DNA of 45,106 nucleotides, from contig JAILFJ010000030.1 in the NCBI GenBank assembly GCA_024697625.1, positions 1-45,106 of the forward strand, written 5' to 3'. The DNA is from Oscillospiraceae bacterium (GTDB taxonomy: Bacteria > Bacillota > Clostridia > Oscillospirales > Oscillospiraceae). Shown piece after piece: positions 6,656-41,197 of the stretch; the first letter of the stretch is position 1, and every line of letters begins with the position of its first letter. The translations under genes and the position numbers were made by a program. The notes under the pieces were generated by a model. The model searched no databases, had not been told where the DNA came from, and saw only the letters and a list, made by a program, of their open reading frames with translations.

Positions 6656-6681
6656 GTGTTTTTACTCCTGTCATCCGGTTT

Positions 6682-7994: not shown

Positions 7995-8006
7995 GGGGGC
8001 GGGATT

Positions 8007-8870: not shown

Positions 8871-8930
8871 AGGAATGCCTCCGCCGTTGTGGCGATACGC
8901 TTCTCACAGGTTACTGATGTATGACTGCGG

Positions 8931-8977: not shown

Positions 8978-8981
8978 AGCT

Positions 8982-10213: not shown

Positions 10214-10316
10214 TGTCCTGCTCCTTTCAGCGCTGCCCGGATGGAGACAATCCGGATCGATCTGAGCCATTATGAAGCCAATTCTACTAAAAAACCTGCC
10301 CGGATGTCAACAGAAA

Positions 10317-10366
10317 GCAAAATGACGGACTGACTGAAAATAATTTTCAGACACCCGTCATTTTGC
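10317..10366. repeat. Nested palindrome with RpiR-type operator core
   Basis: An outer 12-bp inverted repeat (GCAAAATGACGG at 10317-10328, CCGTCATTTTGC at 10355-10366) encloses a perfect palindrome CTGAAAATAATTTTCAG at 10334-10350. The inner one contains TGAAA-N5-TTTCA, the same core found at 6710-6724 and 10428-10442. It may act as an upstream operator for the transporter operon and for the divergent CYTH gene. Confidence 0.7.
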
Positions 10367-10398
10367 ATAGAACAGAAGGAGCGTTTTTGTTCATATCG

Positions 10399-10443
10399 TA
10401 AAATTTTCTTTCAGAAAGGATGGTTATTGAAATTTTCTTTCAA
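10399..10443 (+). promoter_or_regulatory. Tandem RpiR-type operators before the transporter operon
   Basis: TTGAAA-TTTTC-TTTCAA at 10427-10443 is a clean palindrome ending seven bases before the -35. A degenerate partner, TAAAA-TTTTC-TTTCA, lies at 10399-10413, 29 bp upstream (about three helical turns). The shared TTTTC spacers suggest the two arose by duplication. Confidence 0.7.
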
Positions 10444-10450
10444 ATACTTA

Positions 10451-10479
10451 TTGACAAGAGCTCATTTGTCGGGTAGAAT
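10451..10479 (+). promoter_or_regulatory. Promoter of the binding protein-permease-nanA operon
   Basis: TTGACA at 10451-10456, a 17-bp spacer and TAGAAT at 10474-10479 form a near-consensus promoter. Transcription would begin near 10486, giving a leader of about 125 nt. The leader holds a small hairpin around TTCACGCC/GGCGTG at 10551-10569 before the AAGGAGG ribosome site. Confidence 0.75.
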
Positions 10480-10612
10480 CGGAAGCAGGAGACCGGTGAA
10501 GGGAAGCCAGATTTCCAAAAGGACCGGTTGAGTGCTGTGGGGAGGGTTATTTCACGCCGTGAAGGCGTGTGATAATAAAGAATTCAACAAAAATCATCTA
10601 AGGAGGAACACC

Positions 10613-11917: not shown

Positions 11918-11954
11918 ACTCCCTGAAAACTGAACCTGTCAGATAGCGGGTTGC

Positions 11955-11986
11955 GCACCCCCTGCCGCATGCGCGGCAGGGGGTGC
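11955..11986 (+). repeat. GC-rich stem-loop between binding-protein and permease genes
   Basis: A perfect 14-bp stem (GCACCCCCTGCCGC at 11955-11968, mirrored at 11973-11986) with loop ATGC and no T run follows. Hairpins in this position, as in malE-malF, protect the upstream message and keep the binding protein in excess over the permeases. That role is inferred. Confidence 0.75.
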
Positions 11987-12051
11987 TGTCTACAGCTGCC
12001 TGTGAGACCACGGAAAGGGCGGCATTTTTACTGACTGTGAGGTGCATGCGA

Positions 12052-12948
12052 ATGACCCAAACCATGAGCCCGGCGCTGCGGCGCAGAGAGACCGTCTCCG
12101 GTTACCTCTTTCTGCTGCCAAGCCTGGTCTTCTTCGTCGGATTTGTCGTCGTACCGATGGTGATGTGCGTGATCACCAGCTTCTTCGACGCAAACATGAA
12201 TGCGAATACGCCTGATGTGTTCGTCGGGCTTGCAAACTATAAAGAGCTCTGGCAGGACAAAGTGTTTCTTAAAGCACTCAGAAACACGTTTATTATTGTC
12301 ATTGTCAGTGTCCCGGTGGTGTGCATCTTCTCCCTCTGGGTTGCCTCGGCGATCTATCAGATGAAGGAAGCGGCGCTGAGCTTCTACCGTGTGGTTTTCT
12401 ATCTGCCGGTGGTAACCGGTTCGGTAGCGGTCACGGTGGTATGGAAGTGGATGTACAACAACTATTACGGCATCTTCAACTATCTGCTGAAGGGTGCCGG
12501 GCTGATCTCAAAGAACATCAACTGGCTCGGCGATCCCAAATATGCCCTAGGCTGTATCATTATCATCCTGCTCACGACTTCGGTCGGCCAGCCCATCGTC
12601 CTCTATGTCTCAGCGCTCTCCAACGTGGACACCACGCTGGTGGAGGCGGCGGAAGTGGACGGTGCGACAAACCTCCAGGTCTTCTGGAAAATCAAATGGC
12701 CTCAGATCATGCCGACCACGTTGTATATCCTGATCATCACCACCATCAACTCCTTCCAGTGCTTTGCGCTGATTCAGCTGCTGACCAGCGGCGGACCGAA
12801 TTATGCAACAGAGACGGTCATGTACTATATCTACTACACAGCGTTCAAGCTGTATCGCTTTGGTTACGGCAACGCGATGGGTGTGGTGCTGGCGATCTTT
12901 ATTGCAGTGCTGAGCGCTGTTCAGTTCCGGCTGGCGAAAGAAAGCTGA
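12052..12948 (+). CDS. Carbohydrate ABC transporter permease (MalF/UgpA type)
   Basis: The first membrane subunit of the importer, 298 residues with six transmembrane segments. The first, SGYLFLLPSLVFFVGFVVVP, is typical of UgpA-like permeases. The EAA loop that docks the ATPase reads EAAEVDGATNLQVFWKIKWP (about residues 200-219). I favour ATG 12052 because GAGG at 12039-12042 is nine bases upstream; ATG 12046 is too close to it, and the frame is open back to 11983. It is 11 bases from the next permease. No ATP-binding subunit gene is in the window, so a shared MsmK-like ATPase elsewhere is expected. Confidence 0.92.
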   Translation: MTQTMSPALRRRETVSGYLFLLPSLVFFVGFVVVPMVMCVITSFFDANMNANTPDVFVGLANYKELWQDKVFLKALRNTFIIVIVSVPVVCIFSLWVASAIYQMKEAALSFYRVVFYLPVVTGSVAVTVVWKWMYNNYYGIFNYLLKGAGLISKNINWLGDPKYALGCIIIILLTTSVGQPIVLYVSALSNVDTTLVEAAEVDGATNLQVFWKIKWPQIMPTTLYILIITTINSFQCFALIQLLTSGGPNYATETVMYYIYYTAFKLYRFGYGNAMGVVLAIFIAVLSAVQFRLAKES

Positions 12949-12959
12949 GGTGAGGGAAT

Positions 12960-13847
12960 ATGACAAGTAAAGACAACGGAAAGAGCATGGCCTACCGCGT
13001 GTTCTCCATCGTGGTACTGATCATCCTCGCATTTCTGTTTATCTTCCCGCTTTACTGGATTCTCACCGGCGCATTGAAGACCCCGGCTGCGATCAACTCG
13101 CCGAAGCCTGCCTGGTGGCCGCAGGAGTTCACTCTGCGCAACTTCCAGGTCCTGTTCTCCAAGCGCAGTGCGCCGCTGTTTCAGTTCGGCTCGGTGACCG
13201 GACCGACCGGTCCCGCGGCAATCCGCTGGATGATCAACACCGTGTTCATGGCCGTAATGGCGATGATCCTCACCTGCATCACCGCTGCGATGGCGGGTTA
13301 TGCACTGGCAAAAAAGCGCTTTATCGGCAGATACCTGATTTTCAGCCTGATTGTCGCTGCGATGGCACTGCCAAAGCAGGTCATCCTCATCCCGTTGATC
13401 CGGGAAATGAGTTCGCTGGGCCTCTATGACAATATCTGGGCCGTCATCCTCCCGACGGTAGGCTGGCCTTTCGGTGTCTTCCTGATGAAGCAGTTTTCGG
13501 AGGGAATCCCCGGCGAGATGCTGGAGGCGGCGCGAATCGACGGGGCGAGCGAGCTGGGAACCTTTACCAATATTGTGATTCCAATGATAAAGCCGGGTAT
13601 CGGCGCACTGGCAATCTTCACCTTCATTAACAGCTGGAACGACTATTTCATGCAGCTCATCATGCTGACCAGCAGCAGCAATCTGACCATCTCTCTCGGC
13701 ATTGCAACGATGCAGGCTGAGAACTCCACGGACTACGGCCTGATCATGGCCGGAGCTGCGCTGGCGGCGGTTCCCATTATCATCGTGTTTCTGATCTTCC
13801 AGAAGTATTTCACCAAGGGCATCACGATGGGTGCTGTCAAAGGTTAA
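12960..13847 (+). CDS. Carbohydrate ABC transporter permease (MalG/UgpE type)
   Basis: The second membrane subunit, 295 residues and six transmembrane segments. It starts with VFSIVVLIILAFLFIFPLYW followed by the LTGALKTPAAI periplasmic turn usual for UgpE/MalG proteins. Its EAA loop is EAARIDGASELGTFTNIVIP around residues 188-207. GAGGTGAGG precedes the start by a few bases, and nanA begins 15 bases after its stop, so transport and the first catabolic step are in one message. The substrate assignment rests on this linkage rather than on permease sequence. Confidence 0.92.
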   Translation: MTSKDNGKSMAYRVFSIVVLIILAFLFIFPLYWILTGALKTPAAINSPKPAWWPQEFTLRNFQVLFSKRSAPLFQFGSVTGPTGPAAIRWMINTVFMAVMAMILTCITAAMAGYALAKKRFIGRYLIFSLIVAAMALPKQVILIPLIREMSSLGLYDNIWAVILPTVGWPFGVFLMKQFSEGIPGEMLEAARIDGASELGTFTNIVIPMIKPGIGALAIFTFINSWNDYFMQLIMLTSSSNLTISLGIATMQAENSTDYGLIMAGAALAAVPIIIVFLIFQKYFTKGITMGAVKG

Positions 13848-13862
13848 GAAAGGGAAAAGAGA

Positions 13863-14774
13863 ATGAAACAGGAACTGAACAAATACCGGGGAATTTTCCC
13901 TGCGTTCTACGCGTGCTATGATGAAGCCGGGGCAGTTTCGCCGGAAAGTGTTCGGGCACTGACCGAATACCTGATCGGGAAAGGTGTCCAGGGACTTTAT
14001 GTCGGCGGCTCTTCCGGTGAGTGCATCTATCAGTCCGTTGCCGAGCGGAAGCTGGTGCTGGAAAACGTAATGGCAGTTGCGAGAGGGAAGCTTGTGATCA
14101 TCGCCCATGTCGCCTGCAACAATACTGCGGACAGCATGGAGCTTGCCGCCCACGCCGAGAGTCTGGGCGTGGATGCGATTGCGGCAATCCCGCCGATCTA
14201 TTTCCATCTTCCGGACCGTGCGATGGCACGGTACTGGAACGATATCTCCTCCGCGGCACCGAATACCGATTTCGTCATCTATAATATTCCTCAGCTCGCC
14301 GGCGTGGCGCTGAACAGCAGCCTGCTGCGTACGATGCTGAAGAATCCGAAGGTCATCGGAGTCAAGAATTCCTCCATGCCGGTACAGGATATCGAGATGT
14401 GGCGGGACGAGGGCGCCATCGTCTTCAACGGTCCGGACGAACAGCTGCTCTCCGGACTTGTGGCGGGTGCAATCGGCGGAATCGGTGGGACCTACGGCGC
14501 CATGCCGGAGCTCTATTTAAAAATATACGAGCTCGTACAGGCAGGAAAAATTGCCGAGGCACGGGAGATTCAGGATGCCTGCTGCCAGATCATCTACAAA
14601 ATGTGCTCCGGCCAGGGCAATATGTACGGTATAATCAAGGCGATTATCCGTGAGCTGGGCGGCCCGGATGCGGGCGGTGTCCGTGCTCCGCTCTATCCGC
14701 TGCAGGAAGAGGATTACCCGATCGCCCGCGAAACAGCAAAGGAAGTTGCAGGACTGATCGCGAAGTTCTGCTGA
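13863..14774 (+). CDS. nanA: N-acetylneuraminate lyase-like aldolase (DapA superfamily)
   Basis: NanA cleaves N-acetylneuraminate to pyruvate and N-acetylmannosamine through a lysine Schiff base. The 303-residue (beta/alpha)8 barrel shows the pyruvate-binding GGSSGE loop, catalytic Tyr140 in IYNIPQLAG and Schiff-base Lys168 in IGVKNSS, very near the positions in E. coli NanA (Tyr137, Lys165). The superfamily also contains dihydrodipicolinate synthase and other aldolases. The neighbours AGE epimerase, ROK kinase and nagA favour the sialic acid lyase. It follows the permease genes by 15 bases with an AAAGGGAAAAGAG site. A hairpin with T run separates it from nagA. Confidence 0.85.
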   Translation: MKQELNKYRGIFPAFYACYDEAGAVSPESVRALTEYLIGKGVQGLYVGGSSGECIYQSVAERKLVLENVMAVARGKLVIIAHVACNNTADSMELAAHAESLGVDAIAAIPPIYFHLPDRAMARYWNDISSAAPNTDFVIYNIPQLAGVALNSSLLRTMLKNPKVIGVKNSSMPVQDIEMWRDEGAIVFNGPDEQLLSGLVAGAIGGIGGTYGAMPELYLKIYELVQAGKIAEAREIQDACCQIIYKMCSGQGNMYGIIKAIIRELGGPDAGGVRAPLYPLQEEDYPIARETAKEVAGLIAKFC

Positions 14775-14835
14775 AACCGGGACCGCAGCGGCAGAGCCGG
14801 ATGAATCTGCCGCGAAACCCGGAACGCAGCGAAAT

Positions 14836-14868
14836 AAGAAATGGCCTGCATCCCAGGCCATTTCTTTT
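14836..14868 (+). terminator. Rho-independent terminator/attenuator between nanA and nagA
   Basis: A 13-bp stem (AAGAAATGGCCTG at 14836-14848, CAGGCCATTTCTT at 14854-14866) with a CATCC loop runs into TTTT. It lies only about 20 bases before the nagA start, so nagA is probably made at a lower level by read-through. Confidence 0.8.
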
Positions 14869-14884
14869 GACAGGGAGAATACGT

Positions 14885-16015
14885 ATGCGATTTTACAATG
14901 CGAATGTATTTCTTGGAGAGCATTTTATCAAAGGTTCTTTCTGTGTGGAGAACGGGCTGTTCACAGAGATTCTGCCGGGAAATCCATCTGCAGGAGAAGG
15001 AGTCGACGTCAACGGCCTTGACGTGATTCCCGGACTGATTGATATCCATACCCACGGTAATTCCGGAGCGGACTTCTCAGACGGCGATTACGAAGGGCTT
15101 GTGCGCATGGCCCGCTTCCTGGCACAAAACGGGATCACATCCTTTGCACCCGCTTCCATGACACTTCCCTACGAGGTGCTGGTAAAAGCCTTTCTCACGG
15201 CTGTGCGTCTGAACAGAGAGCGGCCGGCCGGCTGCGCAAACCTCCGGGGTATCAACATGGAGGGGCCTTTCTTCTCGGAAAAGAAGAAAGGAGCACAGAA
15301 CGCCGCCTATCTGCGCAATCCGGACTGGGAAGCTTTTGAGAAGCTGTATGAGGTCTCTGAAGGGCTGATCCGGATTGTCGACTTGGCACCGGAACTGGAG
15401 GGCGCGGTCGAGTTTACGGAGAAGGCAGCCAAGAAATGCACGGTATCGGTAGCGCACACAGATGCAGACTATGAGGAAGCGGGCGCAGCGTTCCGCGCGG
15501 GCGCGACCCATGTGACGCACCTGTTCAATGCGATGCCCCCCATCCATCACCGGAAGCCCGGCGTCATCGGGGCAGCAGCGGAGCAGGAGAACGTCTTTGC
15601 AGAGCTGATCTGTGACGGGCAGCATATCCATCCGAGTACCGTGCGCATGGCCTTCCGGCTCTTCCCGGGACGGATCTGTCTGATCTCGGATTCGCTGCGA
15701 TGCTGCGGAATGCCGGACGGAAAGTATATGCTCGGCGGACAGGAAGTCTTTCTGCGGGACGGAATTGCACGGTTGGAGGACGGAACCATTGCGGGCTCCG
15801 CGGCAACCCTGCTTCAGTGTCTGCAGCGCGCGGTCAGCTTCGGCATCCCGAAGGAAGAGGCGATTCTCTCCGCAACGTGCAACCCCGCAAAACAGATCGG
15901 ATGCGCAGACAGAGTGGGTTCCATTGCAGTCGGCAAAAAGGCGGATTTTCTGATCTGCGACAGAGAGCTCAACCTGAAAGCAGTTTTCATGAACGGGAGA
16001 CGGCTGGAGGGATAA
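14885..16015 (+). CDS. nagA: N-acetylglucosamine-6-phosphate deacetylase
   Basis: NagA removes acetate from GlcNAc-6-phosphate to give GlcN-6-phosphate, joining amino-sugar and glycolytic metabolism once NagB acts. The 376-residue amidohydrolase has metal site motif HTHGN (His55, His57), the metal ligand Glu126 in NMEGPFFSEKKKGAQN, VAHTDADYEEA, the substrate loop THLFNAMPP and the catalytic Asp in LISDSL. The start at 14885 follows an AGGGAG site; the open frame extends to 14801 but would overlap the terminator. It closes the transporter operon. NagB is not in this window. Family and function are firm. Confidence 0.93.
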   Translation: MRFYNANVFLGEHFIKGSFCVENGLFTEILPGNPSAGEGVDVNGLDVIPGLIDIHTHGNSGADFSDGDYEGLVRMARFLAQNGITSFAPASMTLPYEVLVKAFLTAVRLNRERPAGCANLRGINMEGPFFSEKKKGAQNAAYLRNPDWEAFEKLYEVSEGLIRIVDLAPELEGAVEFTEKAAKKCTVSVAHTDADYEEAGAAFRAGATHVTHLFNAMPPIHHRKPGVIGAAAEQENVFAELICDGQHIHPSTVRMAFRLFPGRICLISDSLRCCGMPDGKYMLGGQEVFLRDGIARLEDGTIAGSAATLLQCLQRAVSFGIPKEEAILSATCNPAKQIGCADRVGSIAVGKKADFLICDRELNLKAVFMNGRRLEG

Positions 16016-29571: not shown

Positions 29572-30774
29572 TCAGGCGGCGTCTTCCTCGTCGGTCTCCA
29601 CTTCCACAACACCGTCCAGGATATAGTGGAAGGTCGCCGCGGAGGAGGTCGCGTTCTCCTCATAGGGAGTATTCAGATCGATGATGTCGAGGGGATTGTC
29701 GGGATCGGTACCGGTATAGTTGCCCTCGAAGACCTCGAGGCTTCCTCTGCCAAAGGCGCGGATCAGCTCGTCTACCTTCTCCTGCGTGCCGGGAGCGGCA
29801 AGGGTAGTGCTGAGCTCGATCAGTTCCACCCAGCCTTTGTCGAAGCCGGCCATGACATCGTTGCCGCGGGCGGTTCCGTCAACGATCTTTTCGATGGGCT
29901 TTCCCTGACGCACGGCATCTACCGCGGCGGTTATATACGGGGTCCAGTTGGTACGGAGGCTGACGAGCGTGCTGTCCGGCGCCACATCCATCATACTCTG
30001 GTTGTACCCGACAAGAAAGACCTTATTTACAGACTGCTCACAGGCCACGGCAGGTCCGATCGTGTTTGTGTGTGCCGAGATCACAATACAGCCCTCACGT
30101 ATCAGCGTCTCGGTGCAGGCTTTCTCCTTTGAGTAGTCACACCAGCTCCCGGTGTAGCGCAGCTTCATGCGTGCCTCGGGGGCTTCGCTCCGCACACCGA
30201 GGAGAAAGGCGGTGGAGCCGGAGATGACCTCCGGGACGGGATTTGCGCCGACGAAGCCCACCAGCGCCTGGTCCGGTGTGATCTGCCGGGTGTCCAGCAG
30301 CTGGCGCAGCTTCTTACCGGCGATGACGCCGGTGACGTAGCGGCCCTGATAGATCTGGCTGTTAAAACTGTGGAAGTTTTTCACGTCGGGAAGATCATGG
30401 AGTGAGGCGGAGGAGACCATGCAGAACTCGGTCTCCGGATGTTCCGATGCCACATGGACGAAGACATCACTGTAGTCATTGGTGAAGATGATCCTGCAGC
30501 CCTGCCGCATCAGCTCATGCAGAGGTTCATCGCTCTCTGTGGCACGGACGTTGCTCAGCGTGATGATCTCAATATTGTCCTGATATTCCTTCATCAGTGC
30601 GTCCCGTGCCAGAACGAAGTTTGCCGTGTACGGTGTGCTCTCGTCGTTCTCGAAGATAAAACCGACCTTGAGCTTCTCGGAGGCGGCACCGGACTGCCGG
30701 TAGATGAATATGCCGTAATAGGCCAGAAGAACCATAATACAGGTAAGCCCTGCGGCAAGATAACGTCGCTTCAT
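29572..30774 (-). CDS. BMP-family (PnrA-like) binding protein, membrane-anchored
   Basis: A 400-residue protein with one N-terminal transmembrane helix (YLAAGLTCIMVLLAYYGIFI) and no lipobox, then a periplasmic-binding-protein fold of the BMP/PnrA/Med type: KVGFIFENDES, RQGCRIIFTNDYSD, QIYQGRYVTGVIAGKK, GFVGANPVPEVISG and VFLVGYNQSMMDVAP. Family members bind purine nucleosides. The C-terminus is acidic (VETDEEDAA). Its start overlaps the HD-GYP gene stop by four bases. There are no BMP transporter genes (permeases/ATPase) here, so it is more likely a ligand sensor feeding the HD-GYP protein than an import subunit. The ligand is unproven. Confidence 0.82.
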   Translation of the reverse strand: MKRRYLAAGLTCIMVLLAYYGIFIYRQSGAASEKLKVGFIFENDESTPYTANFVLARDALMKEYQDNIEIITLSNVRATESDEPLHELMRQGCRIIFTNDYSDVFVHVASEHPETEFCMVSSASLHDLPDVKNFHSFNSQIYQGRYVTGVIAGKKLRQLLDTRQITPDQALVGFVGANPVPEVISGSTAFLLGVRSEAPEARMKLRYTGSWCDYSKEKACTETLIREGCIVISAHTNTIGPAVACEQSVNKVFLVGYNQSMMDVAPDSTLVSLRTNWTPYITAAVDAVRQGKPIEKIVDGTARGNDVMAGFDKGWVELIELSTTLAAPGTQEKVDELIRAFGRGSLEVFEGNYTGTDPDNPLDIIDLNTPYEENATSSAATFHYILDGVVEVETDEEDAA

Positions 30775-33700
30775 TTCCCGGCCTCCTTCTCGGCTTCCGC
30801 CCGGGCTTTGGCTTCCAGATCCTCAGCGCTGCCTTCCGCGCTCTGCTTGATTGCCTCCTCGGGGCTGACGCCGTAAATCTTGTACAGATCGATGGTTCCG
30901 TTCTCAATGAGGCGCAGCAGGGTGTCGTCTGCTTCCGGATCAAACTGGGTGCCGCGGCCTTTGCGCATCTCGTTGACAACATAGCCGAAATCCATCTGCT
31001 TGCGGTAGACACGGTTGGCCGTCATGGCGTCAAAAGCGTCCGCGACGCCGATGATCCGTGCGTATTCCGGAATCTCATCTGCCGTCAGGCCGTATGGATA
31101 GCCGCGTCCGTCCGGACGCTCGTGATGATACAGCGCCCCGTCCACAACATGATCGATCAGGGTGATGTCCTTGAGGATTTCCGCTCCGTTGGTCGTGTGG
31201 GTCTTCATCTGAGCGTATTCTTCCTCTGTCAGACGCCCCGGTTTTTTCAGAACCTCGTCCGGAATCCCGATCTTTCCGATGTCGTGCATCATCGCCGCTT
31301 TCCGGATGTTCTCGCAGTCCCGCTCTTTCATGCCCATGGCGGTTGCGATCAGTTTGGAATACCTTGCAACACGCTCAGAGTGCTGACTGGTACGGGGATC
31401 CTTTGCGTCGACAGCGCGGGCAATCGCCATGATGGCCTGGTTGCCCATTTCGGCCTGCCGCTTGATCGACTCATAGCTGCTGGAGCCGATCAGACCTGCG
31501 GCAAACACAACCATCAGAAGAAGGACGCCGAAGAGATAGATGCGGAAGAGCAGGGTTTCGTGGAAACTCTCACTCTTGTTGAGCTGGAAGAGGCGCTCGG
31601 CTACGACCTCCTTGCCGTCGCTGTCAAACACCGCCAGATGCAGGCTGTAGTTCCCTGCCGGGAGATTCGTATATACGATCGTGTTCAGGGCAGTCTGAGG
31701 CATGACGGTCCACTCGCTGTCGAAGCCCTCGAGATAGTAGCCGATGTTGGGAACCTGAACAGAGTAGTTCAGTACCTCGGGCACCAGCTCGATACGGGTG
31801 ATACCCCTGCTGACTTCGATGGGAACATTCCGCTCGGTTTTATACTCCGTGCCGTTCAGGCGGATATAGGGGATGGTCATGCGATACGCAGGAAGCACGG
31901 TTGCATAATCGTCGGCGTCCATGGCAAAGACGCCCGTGTCGCAGGGGAGATACAGCGTCCCGTCGGTGTCGTAGTACGACCAGGAGTTGGCAGTCAGCGA
32001 GCTGTTCAGACCGGAGCGGACGTCGAGAAGCTGCCAGTGGAACTCGGTGTCTTCATCTGTGGCGAGCAATCCGTCGCGGTCTGCAATATAGAGGCCGGCA
32101 CTGCTCATCACAAAGAGGGTATCCTCGTTCTCGGCCCAGATATCGTAGTTGTTGAAGTACGGGAATCGGTCGAGCTGACGTATGCTGAAATCCTCCTCCA
32201 GGAAGCACAGCCCGTTGCTGGTCACCAGGAAGACGCCTTCGGATTTGGTATCGGCGACGGTGCGCAGAATGACGCCGGAACTCAGCCCGTCTCTCCGTGT
32301 CAGCATGCGGTCGACTTCGCCGTCCCGGATCACGGCGAGGCCGTCTCCGTCGGTTCCGGCAATGACCGTGCCGTCCGAGAGCTCCGTTACGGACAGAATC
32401 ATGGAGTTGATGAGCCCGTTCGCGTGACCGATGGTCTTTGTGACGGTATCATCCCGGATAAAGCTGAGCCCGGAGTCGCCTGCGGCAAGAATGGTGCCGT
32501 CCGAGAGTTCCTTTACCACACGCGCCCAGTCTCCGAAGCTGCCGTTTGCCTCGTTATAGTGTTTTTGGGTGCCGTCGGGATAGACCTCAACCAGGCCTTT
32601 TCCGTAGGTGCAGATCCAGAGACAGTTTCTGGAATCCGTCAGCAGGCAGCGGATGCGCACGCCGTCGAACTGCTCGGTCAGCGTATCGGTCTCCCGCAAT
32701 GCGGTTTCGGCGTCAACAGCGTCGAGCCCCTTGTCGGTACCGAAGTAGAACTTGCCCTGCCACTTCTCTACTGCGTTGACGACCCGGTTCGGCATGCCGG
32801 CCACACTGTAGATATCCCGGAAGGAGGAAGGGGCCAGGCGCAGCAGACCCAGGCGCGAGGAGGTAAACCAGAGGTTCCCCTGATAGTCCATCAGCATGCG
32901 GTCGATGGAGTTGTTGAATTCGTTGGTGTTGATGCTCCGGAAAACGCCGTCCGGGTCCACATAGCCGATGCCGTTGTCGGCCGAGACAAACATTTCACCG
33001 GCCGGCGTAAAGTACAGATCGTCGATGTTGTTGAAGCCTTCGCAGATCCTCTCATCCGTCTGCTCGAGAAAGCCGTCGGCGACCCGGAAGGTCAGGAGAC
33101 GGTTCGACGTCGTCCCGACAATCAGACTGCCGGTCGGGGTAAACCTGCAGCAGTTATACTGGTCGGCCTCCTCGACAAGCTGGAGAGAGCAGAGGATCTG
33201 ACCACCATTCAGCAGGAAGAGACGCCCGTTGGAGGAGACCCCCGCGACGTTGCCGCGGCTGTCGGAAGAGAGGCAGGAGATGTAGTTCATCTCACTCAGC
33301 GTGCCGAGTCTTCTGAGGCCGCCGTTCATCGTCAGGATCTGCAGGCTGGAGCTTGTCCCGACATAGTAGTAGCCGTCGCTTCCGCGGACGATGGAACGGA
33401 CTGAGTTGGAGGGAAGACCGCTGTCTTCATCAATCACATTGACGATCTTCTCGTTGATGGCGATGGCGAGGCCGTTGTCATTTGTACCGATCCAGAGCCG
33501 ACCCTCCTCGTCTACATAGAGGCAGTTGGCGTTACGGACAATGTTCATGCTGTCGAGCTGCCGGAATTCCTTTCCATTATACCGGTACAGACCGGCATAG
33601 GTGCCGACCCACAGGACGCCGTCGGTGGTCTGGGCGATATCGTTTGCCTCGCCGCAGGGCAGGCCGTTGCTGCTGCTGTAGATGGTCTGGATATAGTCGT

Positions 33701-34421
33701 TGTAGTTCTCTTTGCTCTCATAGGGGGCGGCCATGGCGCTGCTGTCAGAAAGGGTCAGGAGGAGGCTCCCCCCCACCAGCAGCATGACTGCCGTTTTGAC
33801 GCCTGAGCTGTTCTTATCCGCGGAGACTTTCGGATCCGGACCGGAAGAATCAGTCCAATGGCGGGAATGCTGCATACGGTACAGCAGACGATGCCCGAGG
33901 CGGATGCAGGCGAACAGAAACAGGATGGTCAGAAGCTTGTCCAGAAACTCAAGATAGAGCTGACCGACGGCTGCGCTCATACGGAAAGGCAGGCCGAGCT
34001 CGGTCAGGTATTCAATCACAGCGTCACCGAAACGGTTGCCAGTCCAGCCGTACTTCAGAAAGGCGTTGACGACAGAGGAGACGGCGAAAGAGGCCAGAAT
34101 CGTGATCAGGGAGAGCTGAAGCGCGCCCAGAAAGCTGTCAAATGCCTTGCGCCGTACACCGTAGCCTACGGCGACAGCCAGAATAATACTGGTGAGACCG
34201 TAAGCGAAGGAGGTCGGGGTGACAGCAGTGAGAATCAGGTTGCTGGTTATGCCGACAAAAGCCCCGCAGACGGGACCAAGGATCCAGGCACAGAGCACGG
34301 TTCCGAAAGAATCGAGCCACACCGGCAGCTGGAACAGCATGCTGAGGCTGTTTCCCGCAAAATTGAGCAGGAGGCAGAACAGAGTAAAGAGGCAGATCTG
34401 CCAGATTTTCCAGGTTTTCAT
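30771..34421 (-). CDS. Membrane beta-propeller sensor with HD-GYP phosphodiesterase output
   Basis: A 1216-residue fusion. Residues about 5-190 form a six-helix membrane domain resembling ECF-transporter S components (VWLDSFGTVLCAWILGPVCG, FVGITSNLI). A seventh helix (about 210-235) leads to an extracellular two-component-regulator propeller (about 245-870; repeats such as DGVLWVGTYAGLYRYNG, EGRLWIGTNDNGLAI) and a Y_Y_Y domain (about 887-935, IGYYLEGFDSEW). After the last helix (about 955-980) comes an HD-GYP domain with His1046-Asp1047 (MHDIGKIGIP), HHERPDGRGYP and GVADAFDAMT, all metal ligands present. HD-GYP domains hydrolyse c-di-GMP. ATG 34421 is favoured by GGGAGG eight bases upstream. 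It sits between two binding-protein genes, which may deliver the signal. The domain assignment of the N-terminus is less sure. Confidence 0.88.
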   Translation of the reverse strand: MKTWKIWQICLFTLFCLLLNFAGNSLSMLFQLPVWLDSFGTVLCAWILGPVCGAFVGITSNLILTAVTPTSFAYGLTSIILAVAVGYGVRRKAFDSFLGALQLSLITILASFAVSSVVNAFLKYGWTGNRFGDAVIEYLTELGLPFRMSAAVGQLYLEFLDKLLTILFLFACIRLGHRLLYRMQHSRHWTDSSGPDPKVSADKNSSGVKTAVMLLVGGSLLLTLSDSSAMAAPYESKENYNDYIQTIYSSSNGLPCGEANDIAQTTDGVLWVGTYAGLYRYNGKEFRQLDSMNIVRNANCLYVDEEGRLWIGTNDNGLAIAINEKIVNVIDEDSGLPSNSVRSIVRGSDGYYYVGTSSSLQILTMNGGLRRLGTLSEMNYISCLSSDSRGNVAGVSSNGRLFLLNGGQILCSLQLVEEADQYNCCRFTPTGSLIVGTTSNRLLTFRVADGFLEQTDERICEGFNNIDDLYFTPAGEMFVSADNGIGYVDPDGVFRSINTNEFNNSIDRMLMDYQGNLWFTSSRLGLLRLAPSSFRDIYSVAGMPNRVVNAVEKWQGKFYFGTDKGLDAVDAETALRETDTLTEQFDGVRIRCLLTDSRNCLWICTYGKGLVEVYPDGTQKHYNEANGSFGDWARVVKELSDGTILAAGDSGLSFIRDDTVTKTIGHANGLINSMILSVTELSDGTVIAGTDGDGLAVIRDGEVDRMLTRRDGLSSGVILRTVADTKSEGVFLVTSNGLCFLEEDFSIRQLDRFPYFNNYDIWAENEDTLFVMSSAGLYIADRDGLLATDEDTEFHWQLLDVRSGLNSSLTANSWSYYDTDGTLYLPCDTGVFAMDADDYATVLPAYRMTIPYIRLNGTEYKTERNVPIEVSRGITRIELVPEVLNYSVQVPNIGYYLEGFDSEWTVMPQTALNTIVYTNLPAGNYSLHLAVFDSDGKEVVAERLFQLNKSESFHETLLFRIYLFGVLLLMVVFAAGLIGSSSYESIKRQAEMGNQAIMAIARAVDAKDPRTSQHSERVARYSKLIATAMGMKERDCENIRKAAMMHDIGKIGIPDEVLKKPGRLTEEEYAQMKTHTTNGAEILKDITLIDHVVDGALYHHERPDGRGYPYGLTADEIPEYARIIGVADAFDAMTANRVYRKQMDFGYVVNEMRKGRGTQFDPEADDTLLRLIENGTIDLYKIYGVSPEEAIKQSAEGSAEDLEAKARAEAEKEAGK

Positions 34422-34434
34422 CGGCATCTCCTCC

Positions 34435-35358
34435 CTACGACTCGAGCCATTTGGCATACAGCGTATAATAATCAAACCATTGCTCGTACTGTCCGGATTC
34501 CAGAAGCTCGTCGATGATGCCGTTGACATAGTCAATGAGCTGGACCTCACCTTTTCGTGCGGCAATCCGGTCACCGCCGTAGTCTGAGTCCGGCATAAAG
34601 CTGAGTCCGGGGATCAGCATCAGTCCGCTGGTGGGATTCTCCGCCACATAGGTCTGCGCCGTCTCAATATCGACGGCGGCAGCGTCCGCCTGGCCGCTGC
34701 GCAGCAGGGTATAGAGATCGCGCACCGTAGGTAAACGCCGGAAGGAGCGGTAATTGAACACATGGTCCGCAAAGACCGACTCCTGAATGGAGCCGCGCTG
34801 GGCCGCAATCCGGCAGCCCTTCAGGTCATCCAGGGAGGCAAAACGCTCCTCATCCACCGTGCGGATCAGGATTCCGGTTCCGCTCTCATCAGCTGAAAAG
34901 TGATAGCCCTTGGAGAGCTCTGCCGTCTCGGCGCGGCCCGGCGTATAGGCGAGGGCCGAAATGGCAAGGTCACACTCACCGTCCGCCACGGCGGTCAGCA
35001 CTTTTGCAAACGCCATGGGGACGATCTCCAGCCGGACGCCCATGCGGTCGGCAATCAGACGCGCCATCTCCATGTCTGCGCCGACAAAGCGATCCTGTCC
35101 GAACTGCGAGCTGTCAATAAACTCCTGTGGTGCAAAATAGGGCTCTGTCGCGACACGCAGCACACCCTTGTCCCGGATCCAGCCGAGTCTGCCCTCCGCG
35201 TCTGCGGGAATGCCGCCGGCGGTGTTGACCGGGGCTGATGTCACTTCTTCCTCCTGTCCCGGACTCTCCGGCCCTGTACAGGCACAGAGGCCGCAGAGCA
35301 GCGCAGCGATCAACAGGAGGCAGAGCAGCCGGCAGACCGTTTGGTTATTCACAGGCAT
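34435..35358 (-). CDS. Lipoprotein amino-acid-binding-like protein (PBPb family)
   Basis: A 307-residue lipoprotein with lipobox LCAC (Cys27). The mature protein is a family-3 solute-binding fold: GVLRVATEPYFAPQEFID, FVGADMEMARLIADRMG, CDLAISALAYTPGRAE and GCRIAAQRGSIQE are the landmarks of polar amino-acid binders. No permease or ATPase gene is nearby; instead the propeller-HD-GYP gene follows after 13 bases and the BMP gene after that. The start at 35358 uses AAAGG; an upstream Met (35373) is possible. It is the first gene of the operon and its stop is TAG. A sensory role for extracellular ligand is inferred. Confidence 0.85.
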   Translation of the reverse strand: MPVNNQTVCRLLCLLLIAALLCGLCACTGPESPGQEEEVTSAPVNTAGGIPADAEGRLGWIRDKGVLRVATEPYFAPQEFIDSSQFGQDRFVGADMEMARLIADRMGVRLEIVPMAFAKVLTAVADGECDLAISALAYTPGRAETAELSKGYHFSADESGTGILIRTVDEERFASLDDLKGCRIAAQRGSIQESVFADHVFNYRSFRRLPTVRDLYTLLRSGQADAAAVDIETAQTYVAENPTSGLMLIPGLSFMPDSDYGGDRIAARKGEVQLIDYVNGIIDELLESGQYEQWFDYYTLYAKWLES

Positions 35359-35460
35359 CTCCGCCCTTTCCATGCAATCTGGTCCGCCCCGTGCCGCTTG
35401 TCGGCGGAGCGGAAATACTGGACCGCAGAGGTATGACGCCACGGCCAGTCAGGTTATCTC

Positions 35461-35489
35461 ATTATACTCTCTATCGGGCCTTTGCGCAA
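35461..35489 (-). promoter_or_regulatory. Promoter of the lipoprotein/HD-GYP/BMP operon
   Basis: On the minus strand TTGCGC (35489-35484), 17 bp and TATAAT (35466-35461) give a start near 35454, about 95 bases before the ATG at 35358. A hairpin CAAGCC-CTAAGA-GGCTTG (35487-35504) abuts the -35. Confidence 0.6.
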
Positions 35490-35625
35490 GCCCTAAGAGG
35501 CTTGTTTCGGGCGGGATCCGAAAGAGGAAGAGAAGGATCTGTATGCACGGTGCCGCTGGTTCCATCTTCCGATTTTGCAGAGTAACAGATTAAAGATATT
35601 TAATGAATGATTTAAATTTATCATG

Positions 35626-35678
35626 TGGACAGGAACTGAATCCCGTTGTATAATAATATATTATTGCAGATTATCTGC
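35626..35678 (+). promoter_or_regulatory. Promoter and palindrome before the divergent hybrid kinase
   Basis: TGGACA at 35626-35631, 17 bp and TATAAT at 35649-35654 form a good promoter. Just after the start point lie an AT-rich palindrome AATAATATATTATT (35652-35665) and GCAGAT-T-ATCTGC (35666-35678), which could be operators. The rest of the 35359-35742 interval holds no gene. Confidence 0.6.
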
Positions 35679-35742
35679 ACGATTATGATTATCTATATGC
35701 GTAATATGCATATTGTAACACCGTCATACAGGAGACGAATTC

Positions 35743-38694
35743 ATGGAACAGAATTACGGACGGGCAGGGACATTCACGGACGGGAACGGAGAGCAGACGC
35801 TTCTTCAGAATGCGGAAATGAGAGCCGCGGTTCTGGAAGAATTCTGCCGTTTTGTCGTGACAGGTCAATATGAGGAGACGGATCTTCTTGATCTTGGGAG
35901 CGGAAAGCTTCGGGCGCTGCCGGAGCGCAGAGAAGAGAGAACGGCTGTTTTTCTGACTGCGTGCGCCGAAAACTATGAAGACGGCATTCAGAAACTGATC
36001 GAAAACAACCGTGACTTTCCGGAGAGCGCAGAGCTTCTCCCCACCCTGCTGCCCGACAGCCTGACAGAGGCTCTTCACGCAAACCGCAGGCACCGGATCC
36101 GCTGCCGGATACGGAACGCAGAGGGAGAGGCACGCTGGAAGCTGGTGCAGTGCGGGTTCTTCGGCGAGGGAGAAGGGCATATCCTGCTGCTGGTTTCGGA
36201 TGTCCAGGAGGAAGAGGACGTCAAGGAGCAGCTGCGCGACGCCGCGGAAGCTGCGGAAGCCGCAAGCAAAGCAAAGAGCGCCTTCCTTGCGAACATGAGC
36301 CATGAGATCCGCACCCCGATGAATGCCATCGTCGGGATCAGCGAGGTGCTGCTCGGGAAGGACCTGCCGAAGGATATCCTCAGTTCCATCAGCACCATTC
36401 AGAATTCCGGCAGCAGCCTGCTGGGCATCATCAATGACATCCTCGACTTCTCCAAGATCGAGACCGGCAAGTTCGAGATCTCGGACGTCGAATACATGCT
36501 GCCCTCTCTGCTGATGGATATCAGCAACGTCATTTCGGTCCGCCTTGCGGGCAAGCCGGTTTACTTCGTGATGGACATCGATCCGAATCTCCCCAATCAC
36601 CTGGTCGGTGACGATATCCGCCTGAAGCAGATCCTCATGAATCTGATCGGAAATGCGGTCAAGTTTACGCATGAGGGCTACATCGATCTCTGTGTGAGAG
36701 GAAAATTCCTGGACGGAGACAGCTATGAGCTGGTCTTTGACGTGCGGGACAGCGGAATCGGCATCAAGGAGGAGGACCTCGGCAAGCTCTTTGCGACATT
36801 CTCGCAGGTGGATACGAAGAAAAACCGGGCGACCACAGGCTCCGGCCTTGGTCTCGCCATCAGCAGGAATCTCGCCCGGCTGATGGGCGGCGACCTGACC
36901 GTCACCAGCGTCTACGGGAAGGGGAGCACCTTCACCGTCCGCGTCGTCCAGCGGATTCCCCACTATGTGCCCCTGGGCGAAGTAAAGGATAAGAACATCC
37001 GGCTTCTGATCTGCGAGCAGAACGAAAGCCTGATCTTCAGCCTCTCCCGGGCAGCGGAAAATCTGGGCCTCAGCTATGAGGTCTGCCGCGAGGTCGACCG
37101 TATCCGCGACTTTCAGGGCATGACCCATGTTCTGATCCGGCGAAAGATATTCAACGGGCTGCGGGAAAAGATCGAGTTCATGTTCCCGCACAACAATATT
37201 CTTCTGATCCTGGACAATGACGAGCACGCCGAGGGCTCCTATATGGACTATAAGCAGCTCCAGCTCCCGCTGATCACGCTGCAGCTCATCAATGCCCTGA
37301 ACGGCGAAGAGATCGTCAGCAGCATCAAGAAGAAGAGCTTTGACCGCTCCCAGATCATCCCCCTGACCTATGCACACGTTCTGGTCGTCGATGACAACAC
37401 GACCAACCTGCAGGTGGCGCAGGGACTTATGCTTCCCTATCAGATGAAGATCGACCTCTGCACCAGCGGCTTCAAGGCCATCGAGATGATCAAGAAGAAC
37501 CGCTACGACGCCGTCTTCATGGATCACATGATGCCCGAGATGGATGGAATCGAGACGGCGAGATACATCCGGCGGCTGGAGGGAGAATACTACAGAAAGG
37601 TCCCGATCATCGCCCTGACCGCCAACGCCATGAGCGATGCGAAGGTACAGTTCCTGGAAGCCGGGATGGACGACTTTGTAGCCAAGCCCATCGAGATGCG
37701 CGAGCTGCACCGGGTCATCAAGAAGTATATCCAGTCCAAGGCGCCGAAGGGCTATCTGGAAAAGGCGGTCCGTCAGAATGCCGCCAACGAGAAGGGAAAG
37801 AAAGCCTCCGAAAAGCCGGCTGCGTCCCGGAATACAGCCGGAGAGGCCGTTTCGGCACCGGGCTTCGCCCCGATTCGGCTCTCTGCAAAACAGGACGGCG
37901 GAATGCTGGAGCAGCTGCTGGAACAGAATAATGCGCTGCTGTCACAGAACATGCTTCTGCTGAAGGCGCTGCTCGGCGAGGCCCCCGCGGACGGAGGAGA
38001 GACAGAAGCAGAGGAGGCCCCGCACGTCGAGACGGAGAAAGAGCCCCCGGCCGCGGCGATCCCTGATGATGACGATGCGGAAGAGCAGCCGAAGGAAGTC
38101 CGGGACTTCATCAACGGCATCGACATGCGCAGCAGCATCGAATCCTACGGCGGCTCCATCGAGATTTATCACAACATCCTGAAGACCTATTATGACGATA
38201 TCCTGGAGAAGGAAAACTTGCTCCCGACGCTGTATGAGCATCAGGATCTGGAGAACTTCACGATTCAGGTTCACGCCCTTAAGAGCGCGTCGAGAGGCGT
38301 CGGCGCAAACGACCTGGGCGAGGAGGCCTATCAGCTCGAGCTCGCCGGAAAAGCGGGGGACTGGGAGAAGATCCGTGCACAGTTCCCGCAGTTCACGGCA
38401 GATCTGAAGCAAATGGTGGAAAACGTCGGGAAATACGTCGACAAGTATCTCCGGCAGGCGGAGAGGACGGATGCGGAACACGCCGATGAAATGGATTCCG
38501 GCGTGATCGCGCAGATCAAGACGGCCTGTGAGCAGATGGATTATCTGCATGCGGAGGAACTGCTGGAGTCGCTTCGGGAAAAGAACTATCCGGAGGAACT
38601 GGAGCAAAAACTGGATAAAATGCTGGAGTGCTGCAGGAATTTTGACTATGACAGCCTGGAAGAGATGGTCAGACAGCTTGAGGTGAGAAAATGA
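35743..38694 (+). CDS. Hybrid histidine kinase with degenerate receiver, receiver and HPt
   Basis: A 983-residue cytoplasmic kinase with no membrane helix. A PAS-like region (about 100-165, RIRNAEGEARWKLVQCGFFG) leads to a coiled coil and HisKA His187 (SHEIRTPMNAIVG). Then come HATPase (NLIGNAVKFTH, DSGIGIK, GSGLGLAIS), a degenerate receiver (about 415-525, ICEQNES without the acidic pair) and a true receiver with Asp594 (MDHMMPEMDG). A charged linker (about 665-785, poor in order) precedes an HPt with His844 (QVHALKSASRGVG). AGGAGA precedes the ATG. It overlaps the REC-HD-GYP gene by four bases. All parts of a His-Asp-His-Asp relay ending in that regulator are thus present. Signal input is unknown. 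Confidence 0.92.
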   Translation: MEQNYGRAGTFTDGNGEQTLLQNAEMRAAVLEEFCRFVVTGQYEETDLLDLGSGKLRALPERREERTAVFLTACAENYEDGIQKLIENNRDFPESAELLPTLLPDSLTEALHANRRHRIRCRIRNAEGEARWKLVQCGFFGEGEGHILLLVSDVQEEEDVKEQLRDAAEAAEAASKAKSAFLANMSHEIRTPMNAIVGISEVLLGKDLPKDILSSISTIQNSGSSLLGIINDILDFSKIETGKFEISDVEYMLPSLLMDISNVISVRLAGKPVYFVMDIDPNLPNHLVGDDIRLKQILMNLIGNAVKFTHEGYIDLCVRGKFLDGDSYELVFDVRDSGIGIKEEDLGKLFATFSQVDTKKNRATTGSGLGLAISRNLARLMGGDLTVTSVYGKGSTFTVRVVQRIPHYVPLGEVKDKNIRLLICEQNESLIFSLSRAAENLGLSYEVCREVDRIRDFQGMTHVLIRRKIFNGLREKIEFMFPHNNILLILDNDEHAEGSYMDYKQLQLPLITLQLINALNGEEIVSSIKKKSFDRSQIIPLTYAHVLVVDDNTTNLQVAQGLMLPYQMKIDLCTSGFKAIEMIKKNRYDAVFMDHMMPEMDGIETARYIRRLEGEYYRKVPIIALTANAMSDAKVQFLEAGMDDFVAKPIEMRELHRVIKKYIQSKAPKGYLEKAVRQNAANEKGKKASEKPAASRNTAGEAVSAPGFAPIRLSAKQDGGMLEQLLEQNNALLSQNMLLLKALLGEAPADGGETEAEEAPHVETEKEPPAAAIPDDDDAEEQPKEVRDFINGIDMRSSIESYGGSIEIYHNILKTYYDDILEKENLLPTLYEHQDLENFTIQVHALKSASRGVGANDLGEEAYQLELAGKAGDWEKIRAQFPQFTADLKQMVENVGKYVDKYLRQAERTDAEHADEMDSGVIAQIKTACEQMDYLHAEELLESLREKNYPEELEQKLDKMLECCRNFDYDSLEEMVRQLEVRK

Positions 38695-39710
38695 AGAAAC
38701 ATACCATACTGGCGGTGGACGACGACCGTACCAACCTTCAGATCATCCGGAGCGTGCTGGAGAAGGACTATGCTCTGCAGCTTGCCATCAGCGGCGAAAT
38801 GGCGCTGAAGTTTATCGAAAGGAACCGGCCGGATCTGATCCTGCTCGATCTGATGATGCCCGGCATGGACGGCCGGGAGACAATGGCAAAGCTGCGGCAG
38901 ATTCCGGGCTGTGAGACGGTACCCGTGGTGTTCCTGACGGCGAACCAGGAGACGGCGGAGGAGATACAGTGCCTGAACATGGGCGCCAGCGATTTCATCA
39001 ACAAGCCGATCATCCCCGGGATTCTGGAACTGCGGCTCAGGAGAATTCTCGAGCTGGACGATCTGCAGCACCATCTGCAGACCGCCGTCGAGGAGAAGAC
39101 GAGGCAATACCAGGAACTCGCGCTGGAGTCGATCTTTGCTATCGTCAACATTATCGAGGCAAAGGACGAGATTACCGAAGGTCACTCCGTCCGCGTCGCC
39201 GGTTACAGCCGGGCGCTCGCGACGGCGATGGGCTATGACGAGAAGAGCGTGGACGAGGTTTACCGGGCAGGGCTGCTCCATGACGTCGGGAAGACCGGGA
39301 TCCCGGACCTGATCCTGAAGAAGGAAGGGAAGCTGACCCGGGAGGAGTACGGCGAGATCAAGGAGCACACCTCCATCGGCGGTCACATCCTCGCGGCGAT
39401 TGAAACGATGGACTATCTGGCCGAGGGCGCGAAGTACCATCATGAGCGCTATGACGGAACCGGCTATCCCAATGGTCTGGCCGGAGAGGATATCCCTGAG
39501 ATCGGGAGGATCATCGCCGTTGCGGACGTGTTTGACGCTCTGGTCAGCAAGCGGCATTATAAGGAAGCCATGGACGTCGAGACAGCGAAGGCCGAGCTGC
39601 TGAAGGGCGCCGGCAGTCAGTTCGACCCGGCGATCGTGAAGATCTTCATCGAGCTGATGGAGAACGGCACCATCGAAGAGATCCGGCAGGCCTCGGGAGC
39701 CGGACATTGA
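38691..39710 (+). CDS. Response regulator with HD-GYP output (REC-HD-GYP)
   Basis: A 339-residue response regulator. The receiver (about 5-120) has AVDDDRTN, Asp53 in LLDLMMPGMDG, and Lys in NKPI. The HD-GYP domain (about 145-330) has EGHSVRVAGYS, His197-Asp198 (LLHDVGKTGIP), HHERYDGTGYPNGL and VADVFDALVS, i.e. the complete metal-binding set. It probably lowers c-di-GMP when phosphorylated. It is translationally coupled to the hybrid kinase, from whose HPt domain it likely receives phosphate. The divergent operon encodes another HD-GYP protein, so two phosphodiesterases are controlled in one locus. No GGDEF cyclase is present in the window. Confidence 0.92.
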   Translation: MKKHTILAVDDDRTNLQIIRSVLEKDYALQLAISGEMALKFIERNRPDLILLDLMMPGMDGRETMAKLRQIPGCETVPVVFLTANQETAEEIQCLNMGASDFINKPIIPGILELRLRRILELDDLQHHLQTAVEEKTRQYQELALESIFAIVNIIEAKDEITEGHSVRVAGYSRALATAMGYDEKSVDEVYRAGLLHDVGKTGIPDLILKKEGKLTREEYGEIKEHTSIGGHILAAIETMDYLAEGAKYHHERYDGTGYPNGLAGEDIPEIGRIIAVADVFDALVSKRHYKEAMDVETAKAELLKGAGSQFDPAIVKIFIELMENGTIEEIRQASGAGH

Positions 39711-39782: not shown

Positions 39783-40439
39783 TTACTGTTCAGGCCAGAT
39801 GAAGTTTGCTTTCCCGGCCTCCAACCCGTCGATCAGGATGTTCTGGCCGGTACAGAAACGGTTTTTCACCGCCATGAAGCAGACCCACTCGGCAGCCTCC
39901 TCCGCTGTCATCCAGCGTTTCAGGGGGACCTCCGCCATGACCTGCTCCCAGAGGACAGGGTCCTCCATCACGGGGCGGTTAAGCTCGGTCAGAACACCCC
40001 CGAAGTCCAGGCTGTTGCAGGTGGCTCCGTAAGCCGCAATCCGCAGCGCCACATTCTTCGTGTAGCTGAGCAGACCACCCTTGCTGGCTGCGTATTCCGG
40101 AAACTCCGAACCGGTATGTGCGCTGGCCGAACCGATCATCAGTACCGAAATAATCCCCGGATGGATCCCGTAATGCTCGGTCACGGCGATGGTCCCTTTC
40201 AGGTTCACATCGATATCTTCCGCGTTCTGTACACCGGCGTTGTTGATCAGAATCTCGGTCGGCTCCAGGTCCGGATACGATGCCCGGTCCCGGATATCCA
40301 GCACATAGTGCCGGTACTGCGGATGCCGGATTGCGGCGTCCTTCACATCGAAGCCGGTCACGCTGTGCCCCTCCGCGAGGAACTGCCGGACACAGGCCAG
40401 ACCGATGCCGGAGCTGCTCCCGGTAATCAGGATCCTCAT
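39783..40439 (-). CDS. Short-chain dehydrogenase/reductase
   Basis: A 218-residue classical-type SDR. The NAD(P) loop is TGSSSGIG (residues 6-13), NNAG lies near 65, and the catalytic Ser and YAASK (Tyr/Lys near 116-121) are present. Asp in GFDVKD after the second strand favours NAD over NADP. The product is shorter than the usual 240-260 because the loop between beta-3 and beta-4 is reduced. The start overlaps the stop of the queuosine-precursor transporter gene, so the two are expressed together. Substrate unknown; a role with queuosine salvage is not suggested by the sequence itself. Confidence 0.87.
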   Translation of the reverse strand: MRILITGSSSGIGLACVRQFLAEGHSVTGFDVKDAAIRHPQYRHYVLDIRDRASYPDLEPTEILINNAGVQNAEDIDVNLKGTIAVTEHYGIHPGIISVLMIGSASAHTGSEFPEYAASKGGLLSYTKNVALRIAAYGATCNSLDFGGVLTELNRPVMEDPVLWEQVMAEVPLKRWMTAEEAAEWVCFMAVKNRFCTGQNILIDGLEAGKANFIWPEQ

Positions 40440-41197
40440 GCCGCAATACCGGCGGGGCTGTAGCGCCGGAGATAGGCCTCGCCCACGCCGTCCTTCTGCC
40501 AGCTGCAGGCGATCCGATAGCCCATCGGCGAGAAGATCACTTCACAGAGCAGTTCCACCACCGCGCCGGTGACAGCGCAGGTGAAACACTGCAGCAAAGT
40601 CCAGCCGAAAAACCGGTGGCTGACGATCAGGGCAAAGGTGAGGTTGTCCACAAACTGGGCCGCAAAAGTAGAGATGTAGCTTCTGGCTGCAAAGGCGCCG
40701 AAGCTCCTGTGTCCCTGCCGCTCCACAGCCCGGCCGATCCGCCAGTTCAGGAAGTTGTTGACCAGCGCGGACACCAGGAAGGCGACAGAGCTGCCCAGAA
40801 GCACGTACCAGGTTCCGCCGAAGGTATGGTCCAGCGCGGTGTTGATGACAGCCTCAGAGCCTTCCACCCAGGACTCTCCCCACACGCCCGGGAGCCGGCT
40901 TCCGACAAAGAAAACCAGACACATCCCGAGATTCACCGCAATCGCCACGACGCTGAGCAGGTTGGCGGCCCGGGGACCGAACTGCCTGGTGGTGATGTCC
41001 ATCGTCAGAAATACGATCCAGGAAACAATAATTCCACAATCCAGCGCCAGCCAGGAAAAGGGCACATGGAGGCTCTTGTTCGCAAGCAGGTTCATGGTGA
41101 TTGTGGCAACGATAAATAACGCGACTGTCAGCGACGGGATGCTGCGCAGGAGCAGAGTAAGCTCCGCCATAATCCCGGATTTCTCAGGACGCTTCAT
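40436..41197 (-). CDS. Queuosine precursor transporter (VUT/YhhQ family)
   Basis: A 253-residue integral membrane protein of the VUT_1/YhhQ family that imports preQ0/preQ1 for tRNA queuosine synthesis. Landmarks are FIVATITMNLLANK, CGIIVSWIVFLTMDITTRQFG, ALVNNFLNWRIGRAVE and AQFVDNLTFALIV, with about six transmembrane helices. ATG 41197 is preferred because AAGGAG lies nine bases upstream. The frame is open much further (to 41497), but that part is non-coding and holds an RNA element. The leader folds as a probable preQ1 riboswitch, which agrees with the gene's function. Followed by an overlapping SDR gene. Confidence 0.9.
   Translation of the reverse strand: MKRPEKSGIMAELTLLLRSIPSLTVALFIVATITMNLLANKSLHVPFSWLALDCGIIVSWIVFLTMDITTRQFGPRAANLLSVVAIAVNLGMCLVFFVGSRLPGVWGESWVEGSEAVINTALDHTFGGTWYVLLGSSVAFLVSALVNNFLNWRIGRAVERQGHRSFGAFAARSYISTFAAQFVDNLTFALIVSHRFFGWTLLQCFTCAVTGAVVELLCEVIFSPMGYRIACSWQKDGVGEAYLRRYSPAGIAA

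Follow-up and report, generated by a model that had tools for sequence, protein, structure and literature searches.

A candidate HD-GYP receptor system of gut and rumen Clostridia joining an S-component-like membrane domain, a double propeller and neighbouring binding proteins

Why should genes for extracellular binding proteins of two unlike families adjoin the gene of a membrane-bound HD-GYP protein, with no ABC transporter gene among them? The question was raised by a 45,106-nucleotide stretch of DNA, hereafter the window, from an Oscillospiraceae bacterium (GenBank assembly GCA_024697625.1, contig JAILFJ010000030.1). A first-pass annotation had described here a minus-strand operon encoding, in order, a PBPb lipoprotein (here the SBP_bac_3 binding protein, SBP), a 1216-residue receptor (which we named EPHD) and a BMP-family binding protein (BMP), with a 13-base gap followed by a 4-base overlap, and a divergent plus-strand unit encoding a hybrid kinase with its own HPt domain and a REC-HD-GYP protein. 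Both units were confirmed, as was the absence of an ABC permease or ATPase among these genes (Table 1). The two plus-strand genes overlap by 4 bases, and the intergenic region between the divergent units is 378 bases long. Six promoter-like consensus matches were observed in the region against 4.4 expected, and zero Rfam matches to a c-di-GMP riboswitch were found at gathering score within the window.

Table 1. Positions in the window of the genes, receptor domains and promoter-like site
Feature	Position	Strand	Details
SBP_bac_3 amino-acid-type binding protein	34435..35364	-	309 aa; putative accessory input; Pfam PF00497 4e-23
Receptor EPHD	30771..34421	-	1216 aa; S-component-fold membrane domain, signal-peptide-like TM, double propeller, Y_Y_Y, TM, HD-GYP
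EPHD: S-component-like membrane domain	33864..34421	-	residues 1-186
EPHD: linker + TM7 with signal-peptidase-like A-x-A	33705..33863	-	residues about 187-239
EPHD: double propeller + Y_Y_Y	31566..33707	-	residues 239-952; extracellular by inferred topology
EPHD: TM8 + HD-GYP domain	30885..31553	-	residues about 957-1179; Pfam HD_5 8.7e-40; PDB 4mcw 8.9e-43
BMP-family binding protein	29572..30774	-	400 aa; hydrophobic N-terminus; putative purine-type pocket; PF02608 6.7e-29
Hybrid histidine kinase (HisKA + HATPase + REC + HPt)	35743..38694	+	neighbour outside conserved module
REC-HD-GYP response regulator (HD_5)	38691..39710	+	neighbour outside conserved module
Promoter-like site, divergent intergenic region	35626..35654	+	11/12 consensus matches; faces kinase; match only

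Pfam recognized Reg_prop, Y_Y_Y and HD_5 in the receptor, in keeping with the membrane/propeller/HD-GYP architecture annotated before; the likeness of the membrane part to an S-component had been overlooked. This part matched NF045596 at E 2e-16, under that model's own cut-off, and a PDB sequence search gave no match at E < 0.4. Fold searches, which for this domain and for the ectodomain used AF2 models and not solved structures, recovered a six-helix S-component fold. The extra N-terminal helix H0 that characterizes 5TMR-LYT domains is absent, the model starting with a core helix (residues 6-30), and some receptor homologues carry a precomputed PF07694 label. Behind the membrane domain, residues 188-236 were modeled with pLDDT < 50, and 72 of the 114 receptor homologues showed an A.A[ED] pattern past the hydrophobic core, versus 20.7 expected from shuffles; a looser first A-x-A count was weak (96/114 versus 80.6 shuffled). 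The ectodomain contains two propellers and Y_Y_Y, as in BT4663-type sensors, and came out closest to BT4663, BT4673 and BT3049 in the fold search; the propeller may have a ligand of its own.

The HD, HH and GYP motif residues were invariant in 36/36 HD-GYP rows, and the output of the receptor domain is probably breakdown of c-di-GMP, set against cyclases encoded elsewhere. In the rest of the genome, 19 GGDEF matches, candidate cyclases, exceeded the cut-off, some of them falling two to one frame. Because of these matches, the proposal that the locus, having no cyclase, would be a dedicated lowering module is not supported.

Gene linkage was computed for close and distant relatives of the locus. 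The close loci were the best 80 of 531 confirmed loci, in genomes with titles and mostly from rumen and gut Clostridia, and this choice favours close relatives; the distant loci came from sets of 200, 391 and 394 genomes, with about 1.5 kb of flank beyond the gene. Four copies of the window operon (L001, L089, L101 and L109) were dropped from the counts, L001-L008 were omitted from one scan of related loci, and counts "with room" omit rows cut by contig ends. Among the best 80 of 531 loci, a BMP gene followed the receptor gene in all 77 loci with room, and an SBP gene preceded it in 39 of 78, indicating a genetic tie between one HD-GYP receptor and two unlike families of binding protein, as had been annotated.

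When the window, close and distant loci were combined, BMP adjoined the receptor in 84 of the 87 S-component-bearing loci with room versus none of the 29 without that domain, an association far above chance by a test that ignores shared ancestry (Fisher p 2.7e-24). The corresponding numbers for SBP were 40/87 and 1/31, the single case (L121) being weak. The conserved unit is the receptor and BMP with an optional SBP; of the five-gene order put forward earlier, the kinase/REC-HD-GYP pair does not belong to it. Three S-component receptors had no BMP neighbour (L091, L134 and L147). A BMP search of the L091 genome (80% complete) found nothing; in the L134 genome (G900) it returned a single 109-bit match, on a different contig, and the L147 genome (G864) has a second, normal operon with BMP. 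In L134 (1474-5994) and L147 (903-5385), a stand-alone S-component gene is followed by a signal-peptide/propeller/hybrid-kinase gene, so that the S-component and propeller, fused in the window, are there encoded by separate adjacent genes.

Two operons with both binding proteins were found in MAGs titled Chloroflexi and Flexilinea (L065 and L075), with like neighbours including a BPD_transp_1 permease; they reflect either horizontal transfer or a binning error. Another MAG (RGIG7947) contains two operon copies (L034 and L061).

Same-strand transporter genes were sought up to 3 kb away at 84 linked loci, only 41 of which had the full 3 kb available on both sides. No BMP-type permease was detected with four query proteins (0/84), an ABC-ATPase-like ORF was present at five loci, and Pfam identified a BPD_transp_1 permease at a minority of four (L012, L019, L065 and L075). 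A loose permease-motif regex, which can miss permeases, flagged nine of the 84 loci, with Pfam confirmation in four. Only in L019 did a permease lie directly upstream of the operon: two BPD_transp_1 ORFs (about 6900-8872) precede the SBP gene and end 237 bases before the operon. A P-loop ORF within 1.3 kb after BMP was found at 5 of the 62 linked loci with that room, versus 21 of 28 other BMP loci in the same test (22/32 over all available flanks). ABC permeases beside these binding proteins in homologous loci were named in the first-pass annotation as evidence against a common system; in the flanks available at the 84 linked loci, those identified were the four BPD_transp_1 cases, and the sister clade of the linked BMPs does adjoin ABC genes. 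In the window operon, from which BPD_transp_1 is absent, a binding-protein gene lies beside a receptor gene with no cognate permease, the arrangement known from NspS-MbaA.

The closest PDB entries to the window BMP were 3s99 (1.6e-31) and 6pi5 (8.3e-23), with AtzT and 3s99 as best relatives. In the available description of AtzT, guanine is sandwiched by Tyr45 and Trp194 and further held by Ser97, Glu165, Asn218 and Asn220 (PMC6834077). The residues aligned with Tyr45, Trp194, Ser97, Glu165, Asn218 and Asn220 in the window BMP are Tyr49, Trp211, Asp100, Glu182, His235 and Asn237. Linked BMPs are like AtzT and 3s99 in sequence and at the Tyr45, Glu165 and Trp194 sites, with His and Asp/Asn at 218/220 as in 3s99 (Tyr 77/83, Glu 78/83 with 2 gaps, Trp 72/83, His 72/83, Asp/Asn 70/83, 5 gaps each). 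They differ in not retaining Ser97 (a variable site, Ser in 14/83) or Asn169 (Gly in 75/83), in their putative hydrophobic anchor and in being linked to a receptor and not to ABC genes. At one pocket site the window protein carries N where 65 of 83 rows carry D. The genome's own ABC-linked BMP (L102; mislabelled EPHD_L102 in the tree and not among the 39 linked rows) was excluded from the pocket counts. The nucleoside-like ligand suggested earlier was replaced by a nucleobase-like one, since 3s99 and AtzT are the closest relatives in the PDB.

All 83 linked BMPs possess a hydrophobic N-terminal stretch without a family-wide lipobox, a feature missed when the family was first assigned. An AxA followed the stretch in only 5/83, versus 28/38 SBPs, and the BMP N-terminus looks like an uncleaved membrane anchor. 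A lipobox pattern was present in only 17/83 BMPs and 6/38 SBPs, so lipid anchoring is not general. In a quick tree, which took every second linked BMP and warns of long branches, the 39 linked rows grouped as a single clade (SH-aLRT 99) next to purine-type BMPs that are linked to ABC genes, as if BMP had been recruited to the receptor once. The nearest BMP paralogue in the genome (36% identity) is encoded alongside an ABC ATPase and a pair of BPD_transp_2 permeases.

Other BMP genes and neighbours of the locus were also recorded. The genome's purine-type BMP ABC transporter is divergent from a GGDEF protein (L148, 2166-8685). In a 648-residue protein (L149, 3205-5151), the C-terminal half contains a BMP domain and a signal peptide is not evident; 15 of 19 same-genus genomes, its own included, have this type of BMP match in open frames of 647-726 aa. 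Adjoining the island in the window (39783-41197, minus strand) are an SDR gene and a gene for a Vut_1 (PF02592) transporter, which we take to be of vitamin/queuosine-precursor type. The transporter was absent from related loci and was rejected as a module part; the position of a 7-deazapurine transporter beside a purine-type BMP receptor may be a coincidence. Further away (5222-16015), genes for a ROK protein, GlcNAc 2-epimerase, a sugar-type SBP with two permeases, a DHDPS-family enzyme and an amidohydrolase resemble a cluster for the use of amino sugars or sialic acid.

The window SBP has a signal peptide with a lipobox-like LCAC, and its PDB relatives are 4h5f and 4i62. Its ligand residues were well kept among linked SBPs: R144 in 38/40 rows (2 gaps), S136 and S192 in 38/40 each, and D232 in 35/40. 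The Arg and Asp expected of an amino-acid SBP_bac_3 are thus present, which we take to contact the carboxylate and the amino group of the ligand, respectively. An ENEWNYV-like stretch followed the signal peptide in 33 of 38 SBP rows and was absent from the window copy, which has the lipobox-like site. We considered relocation of the SBP gene to another place in genomes whose operon has none. Among 39 close loci without SBP, 14 genomes (completeness not given) were searched and no orthologue was found, the best match scoring 88 bits versus 465-674 bits in four positive controls, and relocation was rejected. These results point to SBP as an optional second input. The SBP search also returned two strong copies each in G949 and G948.

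On balance we lean towards reading the operon as a single receptor system for nutrients outside the cell, and not as a transporter. The membrane-anchored BMP would bind a purine nucleobase-like ligand, and the secreted or anchored amino-acid-binding SBP would also take part in about half of the loci. Both would dock from outside on the receptor, which combines an S-component-fold membrane domain with a BT4663-like double propeller. The membrane domain, with no transport module in the operon, would probably bind a small ligand or sense liganded BMP. Docking would alter TM7/TM8 and, through them, how active the cytoplasmic HD-GYP domain is; that domain would lower c-di-GMP produced by cyclases elsewhere in the genome. 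Of the two extracellular inputs envisaged before, one amino acid-like and one nucleoside-like, the linkage of two binding proteins stood; the second is now put as nucleobase-like, and the S-component domain adds a third ligand-binding fold. More speculatively, BMP might pass its purine-like ligand on to the outward-facing side of the S-component, with this relay, not transport, switching a c-di-GMP phosphodiesterase and with the internal helix possibly cut. Cutting of the signal-peptide-like helix may leave the S-component and propeller as separate subunits, comparable to the products of the split genes of L134 and L147. We know of no ECF S-component that uses binding proteins; if the relay is true, a binding-protein-fed S-component would be a first.

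The likeness of the ectodomain to BT4663, BT4673 and BT3049 and the rumen and gut hosts would also suit a receptor whose true sensor is the propeller (for glycan, as in BT4663), with the S-component as an anchor and the co-transcribed binding proteins scavenging nutrients for permeases elsewhere or, in a few genomes, nearby. The permease pair upstream of SBP in L019 fits such scavenging, as do the other BMP and SBP loci of the genome, where two BMPs lie with ABC genes. However, BMP tracks the S-component domain and not the propeller, and the linked BMPs form their own clade with few AxA cleavage patterns, so we consider this explanation unlikely. Less likely still is that the S-component domain transports, alone or with a shared EcfT/EcfA module, with BMP delivering substrate and HD-GYP as a side function. 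The fold itself and the one EcfT gene elsewhere in the genome speak for it, and the available part of PMC11109136 describes solitary S-components able to transport with no ECF module. Against it, the operon's genes include no ECF module gene, and AxxxA in helix 1, an EcfT contact, was found in only 8/49 rows anywhere in residues 4-28 (4/49 at 10/14, as judged from the sequence), although the possible transport relatives P0170, P0171 and P0177, read by eye, seem to be without it too.

That the shared intergenic region functionally couples the phosphorelay kinase and REC-HD-GYP protein to the operon, which would restore the phosphorelay branch of the first-pass annotation, appears very improbable. 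Apart from the divergent arrangement, it is favoured by L063 (14502-21288, Butyrivibrio sp. FCS014), in which genes for a similar hybrid kinase and a REC-HD-GYP-HPt protein are arranged tail-to-tail with that for BMP. L081 has a REC-HD-GYP gene near the operon, L077 has one ORF resembling both proteins, and L056 and L076 have divergent kinase-like ORFs with REC-level scores only; generic hybrid-kinase matches are common in receptor loci. The pair nevertheless does not recur regularly beside the operon in the best 80 of 531 loci, and the N-terminal 166 residues of the kinase match only the window and its copies among related loci. The five-gene island was therefore rejected as a conserved unit.

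The preferred reading, a nutrient receptor, has partial precedents. The available text on NspS-MbaA of Vibrio cholerae reports a binding-protein gene directly beside that of a membrane c-di-GMP enzyme, an extracellular metabolite acting independently of transport, and a proposal that ligand-bound NspS inhibits the phosphodiesterase (PMC8079147). As described there, MbaA is a GGDEF/EAL protein with one partner, whereas EPHD combines an S-component, a double propeller and HD-GYP with two unlike partners. The use of a transporter fold for the membrane domain of receptors, some of them with GGDEF/EAL outputs, is described for 5TMR sensor kinases in the part of PMC11109136 available, which names no propeller or binding-protein partner of S-component-fold receptors. 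EPHD differs from these kinases in having no N-terminal H0, an extracellular propeller before the output and a BMP gene alongside, and from BT4663-type hybrid two-component sensors in that HD-GYP replaces kinase and regulator, an extra membrane domain lies in front and binding proteins adjoin. As far as the available text of the two papers goes, the S-component fold in receptors (PMC11109136) and binding-protein/c-di-GMP pairs (PMC8079147) are already known. According to a review, SBP_bac_3 is the only member of the binding-protein clan studied in c-di-GMP networks, in RmcA, and its main text contains neither "ECF" nor "Reg_prop" (PMC8846402). In the open-licence literature, no paper was found that links HD-GYP to energy-coupling-factor S components or to two-component-regulator propellers, and a single one on c-di-GMP and HD-GYP in Butyrivibrio.

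These results join a transporter-derived membrane fold, two binding-protein families and probable c-di-GMP breakdown in one conserved unit of many gut and rumen Clostridia. They supply purine bases and amino acids as candidate ligands, and loci that naturally have or lack SBP or the S-component domain offer ready comparisons.
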